A DNA stretch of 33,462 nucleotides. It comes from an uncultured Anaerolineae bacterium (GTDB taxonomy: Bacteria > Chloroflexota > Anaerolineae > Promineifilales > Promineifilaceae). Under the pieces are notes generated by a model. The model ran no database searches, was not told where the DNA came from, and worked only from the letters and a program-made list of their open reading frames with translations. A program made the position numbers and the translations under genes. This document shows, one piece after another, positions 10,245 to 33,462 of the stretch (its first letter is position 1; every line of letters begins with the position of its first letter). Location of the stretch: NCBI GenBank assembly GCA_937949915.1, contig CALECP010000295.1, positions 1 through 33,462 of the forward strand. The letters run 5' to 3'.

Positions 10245-10976
10245 ATGGCACAACATTCTGACAAAGCAGCCCTACGCGGCGAACCAGGTTACGTGTGGCG
10301 GTCGGGGCAAGACCGCCGTTTGCAGATGATCCGACAATGGGTCGATGTGCGCGGCCGGATACTGGACAACGGTACCGGGCTTGGCACTTATCTCGAACAA
10401 CTCGCCCCCTACAGCAACCAACGCTTCGGGCTGGAAGTAGAGTTTGAACGCGCCGTCCAAGCGATTCCGCGCAGCGACGGCATCACGCAAGCGGTGGGCG
10501 AAACGCTGCCATTTGCGGACAACACATTCGACTTTATTTTGAGCAATGAGGTGATCGAACATGTCGAAAATGATTTGCTGACAATGCGTGAAATGGTGCG
10601 GGTGCTGAAACAGTTCGGCCGGATCGTCATTTTTTGCCCCAATCGCTGGAATCCCACCGAGCAACACGGCATCTATTGGAAAGGCGAATATCACTTTGGC
10701 GACAAGCTATTCGTCAACTATTTGCCTGACTCGCTGCGCGACCAATTAGCCCCGCACGTTCGTACCTATACGAAGCGACAATTGACCAATTTGACATTTG
10801 GGCTGCCCGTTCGCATAGTTCATCACGGCCGCATCTATCGCGGCTGGGACAACATCGAAGCGCGGTTTGGCGGTGTCGGCCGTCTCTTCAAACAAACATT
10901 GTACGCACTGGAACGGCCGCCCTTCGACACACTCGGCATCTCCCATTTTTTGGTGCTAGAAAAAACGGCGCACTGA
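10245..10976 (+). CDS. Class I SAM-dependent methyltransferase (methyltransferase type 11)
   Basis: 'GRILDNGTGLGTYLEQLA', 'LPFADNTFDFILSNEVIEHV', typical motifs I and II/IV. Confidence 0.85.
   Translation: MAQHSDKAALRGEPGYVWRSGQDRRLQMIRQWVDVRGRILDNGTGLGTYLEQLAPYSNQRFGLEVEFERAVQAIPRSDGITQAVGETLPFADNTFDFILSNEVIEHVENDLLTMREMVRVLKQFGRIVIFCPNRWNPTEQHGIYWKGEYHFGDKLFVNYLPDSLRDQLAPHVRTYTKRQLTNLTFGLPVRIVHHGRIYRGWDNIEARFGGVGRLFKQTLYALERPPFDTLGISHFLVLEKTAH
10922..10976 (+). repeat. Upstream copy of 55-bp direct repeat (3' end of methyltransferase CDS), left boundary of island
   Basis: Matches 16185-16239 without gaps (48/54 identity from TTC to the stop codon). Encodes FDTLGISHFLVLEKTAH*. Confidence 0.93.
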
Positions 10977-11094
10977 TAATTGTACACATTTCAGCCGATC
11001 ATACTTAATTATGACGCAAGCGTTTTATATTTCATTATTAGAGTTCAAACTTTGACAAAATAATGTTACACATACCGTGGTGGAGGAATAAATT

Positions 11095-14000
11095 ATGGCA
11101 ACCGGGATCGAAGAAAAAATTCAATTGTTTCAGGAGCAGTTTGAGAGCTTGCAATCATTGATAGGGCATAGTGAAGCGACAGCAGACATCATTGAACGCT
11201 CGCTTGATTCTATCAACCATGAACTTCAAACAGCAAAAGAAAGTGCGGCTAACTTACAATTCTGGGATGCGTTAACCAAAGTTACAGAACAAATTCAAGA
11301 TATTACACAGGCAGGCCAAAGACGTGAGTTACTCAAAACAATTGCGGAAAGCGCAAATCAAATTTTGGGGGCAGATGTCACAACATTGTATGAAGGCGAC
11401 AATACAATGAAAACCGTTTATCCAAAGCCCGGATATGCTGGTAAATTATATTTTCCTACTGCGCTAGAGGGAGAGGTGCTTCAAACAAATACTGTTTTTC
11501 GCTATTTTGAGGAGAATGAAACAATATTTGTACCAAATACGGACAAAAGGGGTGATCTATCTGATAAACAACCCAATGTACATGAGGGACAACGATTTGC
11601 TGTACGAGAGAAAATTAAGTCAACTGCCATTGTTCCTCTAAAAGTACGTGGTGAAAAGGTAGGGCTGCTTTTTATCAATTATCGTCAGTCGCAAACATTT
11701 GATATTCAACAACAACAGAAAATAAAATTGTTCGGCCGACAAGTAGCCAATGCACTGCACAATATCCAACTACTACGCTTTTCTGTCCAACAATCAGATA
11801 ATCTACAAAGTCTGTTAAAAATTTCCCGCAATACAATACAAGGGAATCTCAATAATCACAAAACAATGTTTGCCTCTTTGATTACAGATGCTACAGAGCT
11901 TATGCAAGCCAGTGGGGGAGTTATTGTCTCATGGGAAAATGATCATAATGGTGAGGTCATTGCAGAATACAGTACAACATCGAACCAAACATCTACAATC
12001 ACAGATTTCACTACCCTCACTGATGATTCACTGAAAGAACGAATCCTCAATGGTGAAACTTTTCTACTCCAAAATATAGCAAACGATGTATCGTTAACCA
12101 AATCATTCCGTGAGTATTTACAAAAACAACAAATTCATTCTATACTCACTGCCCCAGCTATTCGTGAAGGCAAGGTCATCGCATCTATTGCAGTTTATCA
12201 AACAGATGAGTCACGCATATTTACCTCGCAAGATCAGAGGTTAATTGACAACTTAGCCAACCAAGTAGCAATCTCAACAGAATTAGCTAATTACCTACAA
12301 GGGCAAACGGAACTAAAGCAGCTACGAAAAATGCAAGAAAACACACTGACAGCAATTGAAAATCCTGAAAAGGTATTCGATCTTATTGTTAGTCAGGGCT
12401 TAGAGCTAATTGGTGCAACCAAAGGACAGCTTATGTTGCTAGAAAACAATCAGCTTGTCACGTATGCCTCAACAGTATTAGGGGAGGCAAAAAAGCGAAT
12501 TACTTATTCGCTAGACAATTCAATTACAGGTTATGTAGCGAAACACAACGAACCAGTTAATATCACCAATCTGCAAAATGATCCAAAATTCAAATCTTTG
12601 TATCAAGCTGGGCTTGACGAAGATATTGTCAGCGAAATGGCCGTTCCATTAACCTACCAGAATGAGGTGATCGGTGTCTTAAATGCAGAAAGTGAGTATG
12701 AAGGTGCATTCTCAGAGCGAGATTTTGATCTATGGAAAATTCTTGCCTCACAAGCAGTTAGCTCGATTCAGGTTTCCCGTGAGATTATTAAAAACCAACA
12801 ATTGCTTAAAGAGCAAGATGCAGTCGCGGATATTCAATATAGTTTACTGACAATAAGTGGCAACTATCCTGAAATCATCAAACAGACGCTTCAGAAAAGT
12901 CAAGAATTGGTTGGCGCAGAAGTAGGTCATATTCTCTTCAAAGAAGGTAGTAATGATGAATTACTTGTTGTTGAATCGACAGATGGTGAAGATATTGATG
13001 AACGTGTATCGATTCACCGTTCTGTTTCAGGCATTGCGTTGAAGGAAAAACGCATTGTACGAGTCAATGACACAAAAAAAGAAAAGCCTTACTGTGATGT
13101 CTATCAACCATTTTCACGACAAGACATGCGAAGCCAGTTAATCGCACCTCTCATGGTTAATGATGAAGCTATTGGCGTTATCAACGTTGAGAGTACAAAA
13201 CTAAATGCCTTCACACGTGATGATGAGCAAAGGTTTGAGCGCCTGAAACGACAATTGGCTTTGATTCTGCAAATTGAACGTGATGCACAAAGACGGAATG
13301 CAATACTAAACACCTATCAGAGCATCATCAAATCAGGTTTTGATTTGGAACAGGTACAACAATCAATTATCGAAACAGGTGTGCAATTGTTAGGGGCAGA
13401 AAATGGCTCGTTGTTGATCCTAGATGCTATTTTATTCAAAAATGATGTTCAGACACAACAAAGTAATTCTACGCAGGCATTGCTTGAAGGCAAACAATTT
13501 GATGAGACATCGACACTGACAGTAACGGCCGCCTATCATCCAGATAATACACCTACGACACGAGGAAGGAATTATCTTCTACATCGTTGTGTCAGTGGTG
13601 CGGCCATTCTTGAAGATCGCATTATCAACATCCCTAATCTGAAAACCAGTGAGAAATATAAAGGTATTTATCAGCCTATCGGTAAAGATATGCTGAGTGA
13701 GATAGTCGCACCATTAAAAGTAGAAGGGCGTATTATTGGTGCGATTAATTTTGAACATACAAAGGCAGGGGTGTTTAATTATCAAGATGAGCAATTATTA
13801 CAAGAATTGACAAGCGCAGTTGCTTTAGCATGGTCACAAGCTAATTTAAACAAACGCAATCAATCTCTGGAAGTAGAAAATCTGGAAACGCGATTAGGTG
13901 CGGAGGTTCTACATAGATTGAATAATCCACTTGGGGCAATACGACAATATGTGATCGATATAGAAACATTTGACAGAAAAATTTTAGCAGATAATCCAAG

Positions 14001-14607
14001 CTTAAATGATTCATTCAAAGAGATTAAGCGCAACGCCGAGCGTGCATCCGAACTCGCATTGGAACTACGAAAATCAGGACGACGGGCGCGTATTAAGCCA
14101 ATAAATGTTTCTCTTTTGTTGAACAATGCGCTTGAGCATTGTCAAAATAATAAAAGCGAACGTATGTTAGCTATCACGCCTCGTATTATTGAGCCGTCTA
14201 AGGAGATTCATGTATCAGCCACAAGTCGCCTTCAACAAGTCTTTATTGATTTGATGTCTAATGCGATAGAGGCAATGCCAGAGGGAGGCTCATTAACTTG
14301 TCAAATTCATCTTCCCATAGAAACAGATGAAAACAATGAGAAACAAGTGCAAATCGATATTACAGATACAGGGACAGGTATACCAGAAAACACAGTAGAG
14401 CATATCTTTGCTGATTGGTTTACAAGTAAATCGGGAGACGAGTTTGACATTGCACATGGCATTGGGTTATGGTGGGTTCGTAAGTATATCAACTCACTTG
14501 GTGGTAATATTGATGTTAAAAGCAAACTTGGTGAAGGAACAACCTTCACGGTATCTTTGCCTTACACATTAAATGAGGCAAGAAAAAATAAAACAAACAA
14601 TTACTAA
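11095..14607 (+). CDS. Soluble multi-GAF sensor histidine kinase
   Basis: About five GAF-like modules with repeated 'xxSEMAVPL...VIGVLNAES'-type strands. H-box-like 'EVLHRLNNPLGAI', N-box 'LMSNAIEAMPEGG', G1 'DITDTGTGIP', G2 'GIGLWWVRKYINSLGG'. RBS ggagg upstream. Confidence 0.9.
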   Translation: MATGIEEKIQLFQEQFESLQSLIGHSEATADIIERSLDSINHELQTAKESAANLQFWDALTKVTEQIQDITQAGQRRELLKTIAESANQILGADVTTLYEGDNTMKTVYPKPGYAGKLYFPTALEGEVLQTNTVFRYFEENETIFVPNTDKRGDLSDKQPNVHEGQRFAVREKIKSTAIVPLKVRGEKVGLLFINYRQSQTFDIQQQQKIKLFGRQVANALHNIQLLRFSVQQSDNLQSLLKISRNTIQGNLNNHKTMFASLITDATELMQASGGVIVSWENDHNGEVIAEYSTTSNQTSTITDFTTLTDDSLKERILNGETFLLQNIANDVSLTKSFREYLQKQQIHSILTAPAIREGKVIASIAVYQTDESRIFTSQDQRLIDNLANQVAISTELANYLQGQTELKQLRKMQENTLTAIENPEKVFDLIVSQGLELIGATKGQLMLLENNQLVTYASTVLGEAKKRITYSLDNSITGYVAKHNEPVNITNLQNDPKFKSLYQAGLDEDIVSEMAVPLTYQNEVIGVLNAESEYEGAFSERDFDLWKILASQAVSSIQVSREIIKNQQLLKEQDAVADIQYSLLTISGNYPEIIKQTLQKSQELVGAEVGHILFKEGSNDELLVVESTDGEDIDERVSIHRSVSGIALKEKRIVRVNDTKKEKPYCDVYQPFSRQDMRSQLIAPLMVNDEAIGVINVESTKLNAFTRDDEQRFERLKRQLALILQIERDAQRRNAILNTYQSIIKSGFDLEQVQQSIIETGVQLLGAENGSLLILDAILFKNDVQTQQSNSTQALLEGKQFDETSTLTVTAAYHPDNTPTTRGRNYLLHRCVSGAAILEDRIINIPNLKTSEKYKGIYQPIGKDMLSEIVAPLKVEGRIIGAINFEHTKAGVFNYQDEQLLQELTSAVALAWSQANLNKRNQSLEVENLETRLGAEVLHRLNNPLGAIRQYVIDIETFDRKILADNPSLNDSFKEIKRNAERASELALELRKSGRRARIKPINVSLLLNNALEHCQNNKSERMLAITPRIIEPSKEIHVSATSRLQQVFIDLMSNAIEAMPEGGSLTCQIHLPIETDENNEKQVQIDITDTGTGIPENTVEHIFADWFTSKSGDEFDIAHGIGLWWVRKYINSLGGNIDVKSKLGEGTTFTVSLPYTLNEARKNKTNNY

Positions 14608-14622
14608 CAACTAGAGGATAAT

Positions 14623-15492
14623 ATGATTAAGCCAAACAAACCAAAAGTGCTGGTAGTTGAGGACGAAGAAACATTTCGTAATCTACACATTAATAGACTC
14701 AGTAGATTGGGTTATTCTGTGCTTACGGCCGAAACCCAAGAGGAGGCAGTTATTTTAATCAATCGTCATTTTTTTCATGCAGCTATTTTAGATATTAGCC
14801 TCAATGTTGAAGATAACGCCAATCGGGAAGGGATGGAAATACTGGAACTAATTCATAATAAAAATAATGGAACAGGCATTATTATGGTGACAGCTTTTCC
14901 AAGACATACTTATGTGCGCGATGCCTTCAAAGATTTCAATGTTGTGGATTTCCTTGACAAAGCAACTTATGAGCTGCTCGATTTTATCAATGCGGCCGAA
15001 AAAGCGGTTGCGGCCGCAGAAATTATTATTTCAGAGAAAAAAGAAGCGTTTGAGCAATCAGTTTCTGCTTATGATAATTATTTTCAACAGTTAGCCAGTA
15101 GCTTGGCAGGCAGCGGCGCGATGCGTGTAACAAGAAAAGATGTATCACAACTTTTCAAGCGGCTTGTTAAACCGATGATACCTATTGTTGAAAAACATGA
15201 ACTTGCCAGAATTGATGAAGGAGATAATGAGACCGAAAAAGCAAGCCCTGTATTTGAGCATACTTACTGGAGTTACTTTTTTGGTGAGCTTGTGCGTATT
15301 CGCATCGGTCAAAGAGAACAAATTATCAAAGAAGTTGAAAAATTAGACGTGCTTAATCAGCTAAAAACCAGTGGTGAGTTAAGCGGTTATTTTCAAGTTT
15401 TGGATAACATAACCTACGAATCATTCACAAAAATTGATGATAGAGTAGAAGAAGTTAAAAAAGAAGAAAATGAGGAAACTACTCAAGCGTAG
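14623..15492 (+). CDS. Response regulator: receiver domain plus uncharacterised ~150-aa C-terminal region
   Basis: 'PKVLVVEDEETFRNL...HAAILDISLNV...IIMVTAF...VDFLDKA', REC signatures with the DIS phosphoacceptor. No recognisable output domain. Confidence 0.85.
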   Translation: MIKPNKPKVLVVEDEETFRNLHINRLSRLGYSVLTAETQEEAVILINRHFFHAAILDISLNVEDNANREGMEILELIHNKNNGTGIIMVTAFPRHTYVRDAFKDFNVVDFLDKATYELLDFINAAEKAVAAAEIIISEKKEAFEQSVSAYDNYFQQLASSLAGSGAMRVTRKDVSQLFKRLVKPMIPIVEKHELARIDEGDNETEKASPVFEHTYWSYFFGELVRIRIGQREQIIKEVEKLDVLNQLKTSGELSGYFQVLDNITYESFTKIDDRVEEVKKEENEETTQA

Positions 15493-15563
15493 CCACAGTG
15501 AATTATTAATCACCGTTTACTTATAATTGCAACAAACATCCATAATTATTTAATGGGGGCTAT

Positions 15564-16184
15564 ATGACTACAAAAATTCTGATCATTGAAAATGAACTTA
15601 CTTGGCTTAACATATTAAAAAAGCATCTAAATGTGGAGCAATCATTTGAAATCTCTACTGTATCATCAAAAGACGAAGCAATAGCAAGTATGCGAAATAC
15701 ATCTTTTGATGTCATAGTTTCAGATTTGCAGCTAGTTGATAACGCTTCTTTTGAAAAACAGATATTCGAAACACTTGCTGTAGTAGCGAGTGCCGGAAAA
15801 GATATTCCAATTGTTGTGGTAACTGGTGAACCAATATCTGAGTTTCAACTAATTGATGTTATAAATTCATTTCCAGGAGCAATTTATGGCTGGCATGAAA
15901 AAAACACAACATATCGTCAAGATCGTTTTATAACAAATATAAAACGCATTGTTGAAAAAACACAAGAGAAAGAACAGAAAAAAGCAAAAGAAAAAAAGGA
16001 TAGAGTAGCTAAGATATGGCAAATATTTATCATTTTATCATTGAGTGCAATCATTTTGGCAGTCACAATATATGCGATATTAGCTCCAGAAGGTGCAGCA
16101 ACAATCATTGCCACTGTATTTGTTCCAATGTTCGTTGCTATGCTTACAGGCATATATCTGTTGATAAACAATCTAAATAACTAG
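15564..16184 (+). CDS. Receiver-domain protein with C-terminal coiled coil and two TM helices
   Basis: 'TTKILIIENELTWLNIL...FDVIVSDLQL...PIVVVTGE...GWHEK', then a K/E-rich linker and 'IFIILSLSAIILAVTIYAIL' plus 'ATIIATVFVPMFVAMLTGIYLLI'. Confidence 0.82.
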   Translation: MTTKILIIENELTWLNILKKHLNVEQSFEISTVSSKDEAIASMRNTSFDVIVSDLQLVDNASFEKQIFETLAVVASAGKDIPIVVVTGEPISEFQLIDVINSFPGAIYGWHEKNTTYRQDRFITNIKRIVEKTQEKEQKKAKEKKDRVAKIWQIFIILSLSAIILAVTIYAILAPEGAATIIATVFVPMFVAMLTGIYLLINNLNN

Positions 16185-16239
16185 CTTCGACACTCTCGGC
16201 ATCTCCCACTTTCTGGTGCTAGAAAAAACGGCACAATAA
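16185..16239 (+). repeat. Downstream copy of the 55-bp direct repeat (orphan 3' fragment of the methyltransferase gene)
   Basis: cttcgacactctcggcatctcccactttctggtgctagaaaaaacggcacaataa translates in frame as FDTLGISHFLVLEKTAQ*. Starts 1 nt after the stop codon of the preceding CDS. Confidence 0.93.
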
Positions 16240-16243
16240 ATAG

Positions 16244-17041
16244 ATGAAAGCACCTGCAAAAGAACGACTCGACAAGTTGGTGGTAGACCGAGGCTTGGTC
16301 GCTACGCGCTCAAAGGCGCAAGCGTACATCATGGCGGGAGAAGTGCGTGTCGATGGTGAGAAAGCGACGAAGGCTGGCATGAAAGTCCCTATATCGGCCG
16401 CCATCACACTCACCGCCACCATGCCCTACGCCAGTCGCGGCGGCTATAAATTGGCTGGTGCGCTCGACCATTTTGCGCTCGATGTAGCCGGGTGCGTGTG
16501 TGCCGACGTGGGCGCATGTACGGGCGGTTTTACCGACGTGATGCTGCAACGAGATGCGGCGCGGGTGTATGCGCTTGATGTCGGATACGGACAATTGGAC
16601 TGGAAATTGCGGACAGACGAGCGCGTGATCGTGATGGAACGCACCAACGTGCGCTATGTCGATGCGTTGGATGAGCCAGTCGATTTTGTGGCGATTGATA
16701 CGTCATTTATCTCGCTCAAATTGATCTTACCGGCCGTCAAAAAGTGGCTACAACCAGATTACAACATCATCGCCCTGATCAAGCCGCAATTTGAGGCAGG
16801 GCGCAAGCAAGTGGGCAGTGGTGGCATTGTGCGCGACCCGGCCGTGCATCAGATGGTGCTGACAAACCTGCTCAGTTGGATGACGGCAAACGCGCTCTAT
16901 CCGGCCGGACTGACCACCTCCTCTATCGCAGGCAGCGACGGCAACCGTGAGTTTTTGGTGTGGCTACGGCCGTCCCCTACGCCCCACTTCGATGCGGCCG
17001 AAACCATCGCGCAACTGACCACCCCGCCAGAAGATGCGTAA
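16244..17041 (+). CDS. tlyA: TlyA family RNA methyltransferase (FtsJ-like plus S4)
   Basis: 'RLDKLVVDRGLVATRSKAQAYIMAGEVRVDG' (S4), 'VCADVGACTGGFTDVMLQRDAARVYALDVGYGQLDWKLR', 'LIKPQFEAGRKQVG'. Confidence 0.93.
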   Translation: MKAPAKERLDKLVVDRGLVATRSKAQAYIMAGEVRVDGEKATKAGMKVPISAAITLTATMPYASRGGYKLAGALDHFALDVAGCVCADVGACTGGFTDVMLQRDAARVYALDVGYGQLDWKLRTDERVIVMERTNVRYVDALDEPVDFVAIDTSFISLKLILPAVKKWLQPDYNIIALIKPQFEAGRKQVGSGGIVRDPAVHQMVLTNLLSWMTANALYPAGLTTSSIAGSDGNREFLVWLRPSPTPHFDAAETIAQLTTPPEDA

Positions 17042-30593: not shown

Positions 30594-31436
30594 ATGCGTG
30601 GTTTTGTTGAAGATATTGGTGAAATTAAATGGGAAAAAGTCAAAGAGTATAGCGAGATCATTTACGAACATTTTGATGGGATCGCAAAGATAACAATGAA
30701 TCGGCCGCGGGTGTACAACGCTTTTACGCCGGTGACAGTAAACGAGATGATCGAAGCGTTTGACCATGCGTGGCAGGATCAAGCGATTCGCGTAATCGTG
30801 TTTACCGGTGCGGGAGACAAGGCGTTTTGTTCGGGCGGCGACCAGAATCATCGGCAGCATGGTGGCTATGTGAGCGGTGAAGATGTGCCGCGCTTGAATG
30901 TGCTGGAGTTGCAACGGCGTATTCGTACCTGTCCGAAGCCGGTGATCGCGGCCGTGAATGGGTATGCGATTGGCGGTGGGCATGTGCTACACGTTGTGTG
31001 TGATTTGTCGATTGCGAGTGACAATGCGATTTTCGGGCAAACAGGGCCGAAAGTGGGCAGCTTTGATGGTGGATTTGGTGCGTCTTATTTGGCGCGACAC
31101 ATCGGGCAAAAACGGGCGCGTGAGATTTGGTTTTTGTGCTTGCAGTACACGGCGGCCGAGGCGCACGAGATGGGCATGGTGAATGCGGTTGTGCCGCTCG
31201 AAAAGCTGGACGAGGAAGTGGTACGCTGGGCAAAAACGATCATGCTCCGCAGTCCAATTGCGATTCGGATGCTCAAGTCAGCGTTTAATGCGGAATTAGA
31301 TGGTCAGGCGGGTATTCAGGAACTGGCGGGTAATTCGACGCTGCTTTATTACTTGACAGATGAGGCGAAAGAAGGGCGCGATGCGTTCTTGGAAAAGCGT
31401 GATCCCGATTGGATGCGCTTCCCGCAGTTCCCGTAG
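30594..31436 (+). CDS. menB: 1,4-dihydroxy-2-naphthoyl-CoA synthase
   Basis: '[15 protein letters not shown]', '[64 protein letters not shown]', C-terminal '[21 protein letters not shown]', specific to MenB within the crotonase family. Confidence 0.93.
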
Positions 31437-31448
31437 GGAGTAAGACAG

Positions 31449-31478
31449 TTTAACGCAGAGGCGCAGAGATTCGCAGAG
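31449..31478. repeat. CGCAGAG-type intergenic repeat
   Basis: tttaacgcagaggcgcagagattcgcagag. A related string (ttaaccgcagaggcgcggag) occurs at 33281-33300. Confidence 0.75.
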
Positions 31479-31542
31479 TTTTTTGTGAAGCTTTGCGCCG
31501 TTATTTAATGTTGTGATTTTTGAGTAAATGGAGTGATGCGCG

Positions 31543-32736
31543 ATGGATATGTTGACGAAAGCGAACGAGATTAAAGACGAGATTGTACGATTGCGGCGAG
31601 ATATTCACGCGCATCCTGAGTTGGGGTTTGAGGAAGTGCGGACGGCGAAGCTGGTGGCCGATACGCTGCGTGAGATTGGGATGGAGGTGACAGAGGGTGT
31701 CGGCCGAACGGGCGTGGTTGGGCAACTGGGTGCGGGTACGGGCCCGACGATTGCGATTCGGGCCGATATGGATGCGCTGCCGATTGAGCAAGAAAGTGAT
31801 GCGCCGTATAAATCGACTGTGCCGGGGGTGATGCACGCTTGTGGACATGACGCGCACACGGCGATGCTGCTGGGGGTGGCGCATTTGTTGAAACAGAGCT
31901 TGGCGACGGAAAAGTGGCAGGGCAATGTGCGCTTTTTGTTTCAGCCAAGTGAGGAGGCTTGGGGTGAGGATGGGATTAGTGGTGCGACGGCGATGATCAA
32001 TGATGATGCGATGAACGGGGTGGATGCAGTGATTGCGTTGCATGTTAATTCGCTGAAGGAGACGGGCGAACTTAACTTTGCGGATGGGATTGCGCTGTCG
32101 GCCGTTGATTCGTTTGAGGCGTGGATTCGGGCGACTGGGTCGCATGGGGCGAGTCCGCATAAGGGGACGGATGCGAATTATATGTTGTCGCATGTGTTGC
32201 CTGCGCTGTATGCGATTCCGTCACGGATGATCGATCCGTTGCAGCCGACGGTTGTGAGTGTGGGGCGGATTGAGAGCGGGAATGCGACGAATGTGATTCC
32301 GGCCGAGGTGTATGTGAATGGCACGATTCGGTCGCGTGATGAGGGTGTGCGGGAGCAACTTTGGGCGGAGATCGAGCGGGCGTTTGCGCTGGCGGAGCAT
32401 TTTGGTGGGTCGAGTGAGGTGGTGATTCATAAGGGCTACATTGCGATGGAAAATGATGTGGGCGTGAATGATTGGATGCGGGATGTGGTGTCTGATTTTG
32501 GGCTGGCTGATGGCATTGTGAACAAGACGTTTGGGATGGGCGGCGAGGATTTTGCGTATATGACGAAGGCTGCGCGAGGGGCGATGTTTATGTTGGGGGC
32601 GGCGACGAAGGATGGGGTGATGCGGGGGCATCATACGCCGTTGTTTGATATTGATGAGGATGCGTTGCCGGTTGGGACGGCGGTGTTGGCGGAGACGGCG
32701 CGGCGGTTTGTTTTGGGAGAGGTTGGGAAAGAATAG
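31543..32736 (+). CDS. M20 family metallo-amidohydrolase
   Basis: 'RRDIHAHPELGFEE', 'IRADMDALPIEQESDAPYKSTVPGVMHACGHDAHTAMLLGVAHLL', 'FGMGGEDFAYMTKAARGAMFMLG'. Confidence 0.92.
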   Translation: MDMLTKANEIKDEIVRLRRDIHAHPELGFEEVRTAKLVADTLREIGMEVTEGVGRTGVVGQLGAGTGPTIAIRADMDALPIEQESDAPYKSTVPGVMHACGHDAHTAMLLGVAHLLKQSLATEKWQGNVRFLFQPSEEAWGEDGISGATAMINDDAMNGVDAVIALHVNSLKETGELNFADGIALSAVDSFEAWIRATGSHGASPHKGTDANYMLSHVLPALYAIPSRMIDPLQPTVVSVGRIESGNATNVIPAEVYVNGTIRSRDEGVREQLWAEIERAFALAEHFGGSSEVVIHKGYIAMENDVGVNDWMRDVVSDFGLADGIVNKTFGMGGEDFAYMTKAARGAMFMLGAATKDGVMRGHHTPLFDIDEDALPVGTAVLAETARRFVLGEVGKE

Positions 32737-32761
32737 AACACAGATTGGACGGATAAAACGG

Positions 32762-33462
32762 ATGAAGACGGATTTTTTGACGGTTTGTGGAGATGTGTTT
32801 GATCTGGATTGGATTCGGGATGAATTTGATGCGGGGTCTTCGCGGCTGTCTGATTATCAGATGGTGGTGTTGGGGTTTTGTCAGCGTTGGTTGCGGGGGG
32901 AGGATGTGTTTGAGATTCGGACGAGCGGGAGTACGGGTCGGCCGAAGGTGATTGCGTTGCGGCGGGAACGGATGATTGCGAGTGCGCGGGGGACGGCGGC
33001 GGTGGTGGGTCTGAAGGCGGGTGATCGGGCGTTGGTGTGTTTGGATGTGCGCTATGTGGGGGGGATGATGATGGTGGTGCGGGGGCTGGAGATTGGGTTG
33101 GCTTTGACTGTGATTGCGCCTGTGGGTCGGCCGTTGGCGGGGTTTGATGCTGGGTTTGATTTTGTGGCGATGGTGCCGATGCAGGTGGGGGCGAGTTTGG
33201 ATTTTGATGCGGATGTTTTGATGGGGTGTGGGGTGGTTTTGATTGGGGGGGCGGCTGTTTCGGAGGAGTTGGAAGAGGGATTAACCGCAGAGGCGCGGAG
33301 GGGGGAGGACGTTTCTTCTCTCTCTACTCCTCACTCTTTACTTTGTACTTTTTTCCACACGTATGGGATGACGGAGACGGTGAGCCATGTGGCGTTGCGG
33401 CGGGTGGGGGTGAGTGAGTGGTTTGAGGGGTTGCCGGGGGTTGAATTGCGTTTGGATGGGCG
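32762..33462 (+). CDS. menE: AMP-binding acyl-CoA ligase, MenE (O-succinylbenzoate-CoA ligase)-like, truncated by the window end
   Basis: Hand translation is open from the ATG at 32762 to the window edge (so absent from the ORF track). 'IRTSGSTGRPKVIAL' P-loop and 'TYGMTETVSHVALRRV'. Located downstream of menB. Confidence 0.78.
   Translation, partial: MKTDFLTVCGDVFDLDWIRDEFDAGSSRLSDYQMVVLGFCQRWLRGEDVFEIRTSGSTGRPKVIALRRERMIASARGTAAVVGLKAGDRALVCLDVRYVGGMMMVVRGLEIGLALTVIAPVGRPLAGFDAGFDFVAMVPMQVGASLDFDADVLMGCGVVLIGGAAVSEELEEGLTAEARRGEDVSSLSTPHSLLCTFFHTYGMTETVSHVALRRVGVSEWFEGLPGVELRLDG
33281..33340. repeat. Probable in-frame insertion of CGCAGAG-type/pyrimidine-rich intergenic sequence within the menE-like gene
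   Basis: ttaaccgcagaggcgcggag followed by ttctctctctactcctcactctttactt. Sharp change in composition and codon usage within the ORF. Confidence 0.65.

Follow-up and report, generated by a model that had tools for sequence, protein, structure and literature searches.

A low-GC three-gene signalling block between two copies of a methyltransferase gene tail, a probable small non-autonomous island

The e14 prophage of Escherichia coli encodes its own integrase. It integrates at the 3' end of icd, supplies the 3' codons of that gene and leaves the original end behind as a pseudo-fragment (PMC6379469). The microcin H47 island of E. coli is small and has no recombinase gene, yet it carries extensive imperfect direct repeats, excises and integrates, and forms hybrid sites at several stretches of identity (PMC3191183). 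None of the host recombinases tested was required for its mobility (PMC5426353). Small modules, toxin-antitoxin pairs and signalling cassettes among them, evidently move, and the movement of those that lack an integrase is mostly obscure. To our knowledge, integrase-less elements at gene ends are little described in the bacterial group considered here.

The window, the whole stretch of 33,462 nucleotides that was analysed, comes from an uncultured Anaerolineae bacterium (genome G000) and has three genes lodged between two copies of a methyltransferase gene 3' end. It was compared with a family sample of 52 genomes and a class sample of 396. The locus comprises the following features:

9516..10154, plus strand: uracil-DNA glycosylase family gene (PF03167, 1.3e-31), 5' neighbour of the target gene and upstream of the methyltransferase in many relatives
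10245..10976, plus strand: class I SAM methyltransferase, the target gene (PF08241, 2.2e-14; orthologues in the family 61-67% identical)
10923..10976, plus strand: tail copy A, 48/54 match to 16186-16239; putative hybrid of chromosomal and element sequence and left attachment junction
10974..10980, plus strand: TGATAAT, the stop codon and first bases of the insert, common to the unrelated insert in G016
11095..14607, plus strand: cargo gene 1, for a soluble histidine kinase that has about five GAF domains (PF13185 and PF01590, five stretches each; PF02518; GC3 0.31)
14623..15492, plus strand: cargo gene 2, receiver (PF00072, 9.4e-14) with a C-terminal domain that has no assigned type
15564..16184, plus strand: cargo gene 3, receiver-like (PF00072, 3.7e-7) with two long, partly hydrophobic C-terminal helices
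16186..16239, plus strand: tail copy B, putative stranded original methyltransferase 3' end and right attachment junction, by analogy with the second tail in G016 and the native ending in G030
16244..17041, plus strand: tlyA (S4 and FtsJ domains; PF01728, 6.3e-43, and PF01479), chromosomal and now 3' of the island; orthologues in the family 59-70% identical

At 16186-16239, the sequence repeats the 18 terminal codons of the methyltransferase gene (10923-10976) without a gap. The copies are identical at 48 of 54 positions, with mismatches at repeat positions 9, 24, 28, 48, 51 and 53 and a longest exact run of 19 bp. They translate as FDTLGISHFLVLEKTAH (10923-10976) and FDTLGISHFLVLEKTAQ (16186-16239), each followed by a stop; the last residue is the sole amino-acid difference, and the stop codon changes from TGA to TAA. 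A direct repeat of the target gene 3' end is present at both island edges with its reading frame kept, and similarity is lost abruptly at either edge of the repeat. Copy B starts 1 nt past the stop codon of cargo gene 3 (16182-16184) and ends 4 nt 5' of the tlyA ATG at 16244. Under an independent-bases model, the chance expectation of such a repeat is ~1e-17 for the whole window. A sequence-only reading of this DNA had described a duplicated 18-codon tail around a block of three genes of different composition, and re-alignment reproduces that description to the base.

The three cargo genes have a GC content of 0.33-0.39 and a GC3 of 0.23-0.31; for the six flanking genes measured, the corresponding values are 0.52-0.58 and 0.51-0.69. 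Their different composition, already remarked on from the sequence, is evident in both measures. tlyA and its neighbours are host-like in composition. A separate feature of the window is that its GC skew is strongly positive at 31000-33000 (0.33 to 0.48), unlike the remainder.

By content, the island is a two-component signalling module, with a histidine kinase that has a catalytic domain and receiver proteins in one cluster. A structure model of cargo gene 3, of low-to-moderate confidence, places its helices at residues 116-173 and 178-205, and a C-terminal membrane segment is predicted. The model of the cargo gene 2 protein (pLDDT 43) was too poor for a structure search. The GAF-sensing histidine kinase would presumably signal to two response regulators, one of them membrane-bound. 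A domain search of the island genes found no integrase or other recombinase gene, in agreement with what the sequence-only reading had said of the integrase; we therefore do not class the island as an autonomous integrative element.

We think that 10977-16185 is probably a small non-autonomous island, integrated by a single crossover at a tail-shaped attachment site. The final ~35-54 bp of the methyltransferase gene would form this site. A circle is the simplest form for the incoming DNA, which would bring its own copy of the methyltransferase tail; one crossover within the tail would insert the island and replace the 3' end of the gene by a working one (copy A). The same crossover would strand the original 3' end (copy B) just 5' of tlyA. 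The circular intermediate, the single crossover and its agent are inferred. The element would then have supplied the 18 terminal codons of the methyltransferase, in whole or in part, and copy B would be the original end of the gene, as a comparable case suggests.

This second case is found in G016 (L022, 1783-2609), where the methyltransferase tail is likewise duplicated, the copies lying 827 bp apart with two genes between them. The insert of 0.8 kb encodes a TumE-type toxin (PF20126, 1.7e-9) and an HVO_A0114-type winged-helix protein (PF25212, 1.4e-19). The tail copies share an exact repeat of 35 bp, and their differences are confined to the last 7 of ~43 nt. The congener G030 (L031, 2100-2300) lacks the insert. 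Its methyltransferase ends in ...LVLEKV-TAA and runs straight into divergent HTH_3/Gp49 genes that are also found downstream in G016. Those HTH_3/Gp49 genes, beside the insert in G016, are a further, native toxin-antitoxin-like pair.

The downstream copy in G016 reads EKV-TAA as in G030, whereas the gene itself now reads EKM-TGA. Since the downstream copy matches the G030 ending and the gene copy does not, it is the native end that was stranded, and the new end came with the insert. The 35 exact bases followed by 7 differing ones are as expected if a tail-bearing element crossed over within the common stretch. The tail duplications of G016 and G000 are independent and enclose unrelated cargo at the same methyltransferase 3' end. 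The proposal that the G000 block integrated at a gene 3' end and carried in a replacement end had been made from the sequence, and it gains support from the comparison of G016 with G030, from the foreign composition and from the absence of the cargo gene 2 domain from the other family genomes sampled.

None of the other family genomes sampled has a match to the distinctive C-terminal domain of cargo gene 2. Two genomes of a different family in the class are the only ones with distant homologues, 31% identical over the aligned proteins, which form part of a histidine kinase-receiver pair in other surroundings; the domain is absent from the rest of the 400 phylum genomes searched. Close cargo relatives were not found in the scan of genome contigs beyond one receiver-domain match, and viral contigs and plasmids yielded nothing past generic receivers. 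No further copies of the island were found within G000. The cargo did not correspond to a known anti-phage defence system in PADLOC, where its matches were weak, some of them through the receiver domain.

The methyltransferase is found across the family, with best matches at the identity given above, and the uracil-DNA glycosylase gene often lies 5' of it. Many relatives share the gene order glycosylase-methyltransferase-(variable)-pdxS and have tlyA at another place; pdxS lies 0.1 to 6.6 kb 3' of the methyltransferase at many, though fewer than half, of the family sites examined. This interval is a variable region that extends beyond the cases of tail duplication, and in several genomes it contains toxin-antitoxin-like genes. 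Across genera (L122-L159), its 0.1-6.6 kb hold toxin-antitoxin-like, acetyltransferase-like and other genes. G061 (L159) has a small ribbon-helix-helix-like gene and a PIN-like gene 3' of the methyltransferase. In G060 (L158), the methyltransferase apparently runs, through a deletion, into the final ~9 codons (AKLETAGHS) of this small ribbon-helix-helix-like gene, and the PIN-like gene is left alone. About 1.5-4.0 kb past the methyltransferase in G016 (L122) is a gene for an 834-aa leucine-rich-repeat protein whose GTPase-like segment resembles Roc/COR on visual inspection.

The tlyA orthologues of the family never adjoin the methyltransferase; this adjacency is unique to G000 among the genomes searched. 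A relative with an empty methyltransferase-tlyA site was sought and none was found among them; an empty-site comparator is available for the G016 insert, in G030. The tail is not part of a conserved tlyA leader, a possibility that the sequence-only reading had raised against its own proposal: the tail is missing upstream of tlyA at all 29 loci in relatives.

With a degenerate pattern whose reversed control gave near zero, the tail was found in 47 of the 52 family genomes, and twice only in G000 and G016. The class sample has it in 188 of 396 genomes, with no further true double recognised. Two dissimilar matches to the pattern lie on different contigs of G296. The two tails of G309 (C252, C573; L120, L121) were considered as an insertion and set aside: they sit on two contigs that stay near-identical well past the tail, probably a strain mixture. 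Searches of viral, phage and plasmid collections did not find the tail; one viral contig with the pattern was a chance match within another gene, in a different frame. A fine search of ~500 kb downstream of 41 homologous family genes revealed no other tail repeats except that of G016. Furthermore, no other gene with its 3' end repeated around an insert was found in about 0.9 Mb (~2,900 stop-to-stop frames), comprising methyltransferase neighbourhoods and sampled contigs of G000 and G016, with repeat proteins and dispersed repeats set aside.

Although sampling was centred on the methyltransferase, the finding of two cases there and of none at other genes favours a site over random events. The methyltransferase 3' end looks like a recurrent, rarely occupied docking point for small modules, taken up in 2 of the 47 tail-bearing family genomes. 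Both inserts begin with TGATAAT, and among the methyltransferase tails listed TGA-TAAT occurs only at the two occupied sites; this motif was picked post hoc, and the match is a lead. An inverted repeat in tail A (TTTTTT-8-AAAAAA), tried as a core-site candidate, was dropped because it is not common to G016. A broader reading would make the methyltransferase 3' end a common attachment site of minimal recombinase-free cassettes, with a gene-tail core, a TGATAAT terminus and unrelated cargo (signalling or toxin-antitoxin), moved in trans by a recombinase whose gene lies elsewhere. We offer this tentatively and regard it as somewhat unlikely.

A search for the crossover agent in the DNA 3' of the methyltransferase at 41 family sites (up to ~15 kb, contig permitting) brought up no tyrosine recombinase. 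Elsewhere, G000 encodes five tyrosine recombinases above the family cut-off that could act in trans. A tyrosine recombinase near tlyA in G001 was rejected as a candidate: it is chromosomal, resembles one of those in G000 and has no tail nearby. A site-specific recombinase acting in trans is a plausible agent, a little short of probable and likelier than general recombination. RecA-dependent or RecA-independent recombination between short repeats is an unlikely one. The 54-bp repeat is 89% identical, which is poor for RecA-type recombination and counts against the model. Further points against it are the missing integrase, the failure to find the tail in viral, phage or plasmid records, the lack of an empty site for the G000 island among the genomes searched, and a record of two cases whose tail starts lie 6-9 nt apart. 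Homologous recombination between diverged strains, which the sequence-only reading had put forward as an alternative, may have served as the crossover agent, but alone it leaves the presence of two unrelated cargos at one 3' end unaccounted for.

Import of linear DNA by homology-facilitated illegitimate recombination is the alternative that survives best. Here a donor methyltransferase and the three genes would have entered through a left crossover inside the methyltransferase, and the right end would have been joined illegitimately in the recipient methyltransferase tail. Such an import accounts for the replacement tail and the stranded original without a circle or a recombinase, and it fits the synonymous differences and the missing integrase. 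However, it predicts a right junction anywhere in ~700 bp of gene, whereas the tail starts of G000 and G016, the two known cases, differ by 6-9 nt. Both right junctions, moreover, abut the last cargo stop codon, which lies 1-2 nt before the right-hand tail in each insert, and no donor with the methyltransferase-histidine kinase gene order was found in the genomes searched. We consider linear import quite unlikely.

Insertion with a long target duplication, in which both repeat copies stem from one target sequence, is known for restriction-modification genes of Helicobacter pylori (PMC1643837). In G016, this is at odds with differences that fall in the last 7 of the ~43 nt and with the fact that the changed copy is the gene rather than the stranded one. 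In G000, it is at odds with 16 codons that show no residue change despite 6 differences. A simulation of one duplication, with the gene copy under selection, the stranded copy free and equal mutation rates, gave a probability of about 0.009 for 6 differences that leave the first 16 residues unchanged by divergence in place. The endings of G016 and G030, together with the simulation, speak against an origin from one target and favour two tails that came together after diverging in separate intact genes. A long target duplication is accordingly improbable.

It is more improbable still that the island is native and that the side with tail B and tlyA was imported or translocated. tlyA adjoins the methyltransferase in G000 only, so the right side was rearranged in the G000 lineage. 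Against this, the three genes are foreign in GC and GC3 while tlyA and its neighbours are host-like, and the distinctive domain of cargo gene 2 is unmatched in the other family genomes sampled. An assembly artefact or strain chimera is hardly credible: the G000 assembly is fragmented (425 contigs) and in G309 a mixture of strains did look like a second tail, but the copies share no exact run above 19 bp, a single 33 kb contig holds both junctions in its interior, and the independent genome G016 has the same architecture.

Integration of a non-autonomous island at the methyltransferase tail predicts an excised circle with a hybrid tail. Two unrelated modules at one gene-end site, with an empty comparator for one of them, provide a concrete attachment sequence. 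Furthermore, gene-tail duplication is a signature by which integrase-free islands can be scanned for automatically.

Among described systems, e14 at icd shares with this locus the 3' end of a protein gene, the near-synonymous replacement of a tail and the stranded original (PMC6379469); it differs in being a prophage with a repeat of about 163 bp, whereas the repeats here span 35-54 bp and enclose three or two cargo genes and no integrase. The H47 island resembles the G000 island as a small recombinase-less island between imperfect direct repeats, which are present at both ends here. It differs in its 13 kb and microcin cargo, in a mobility that is experimental where ours is inferred, and in repeats that the portion of the report drawn on here does not describe as a gene 3' end (PMC3191183). 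The H. pylori restriction-modification insertions likewise place a module between long direct repeats with no obvious transposase (PMC1643837), but the repeat is a target duplication there, and here one copy is insert-borne on the sequence evidence. SGI1-like islands (trmE, yicC, dusA) also sit at conserved gene ends and are mobilised in trans by helper plasmids (PMC8409611), although they have their own integrase and many more genes. Thus, e14 provides a precedent for the tail-replacing site and H47 one for integrase-free mobility between imperfect repeats. The G000 island is best filed with the known non-autonomous, gene-end-targeting islands, as a variant of them.
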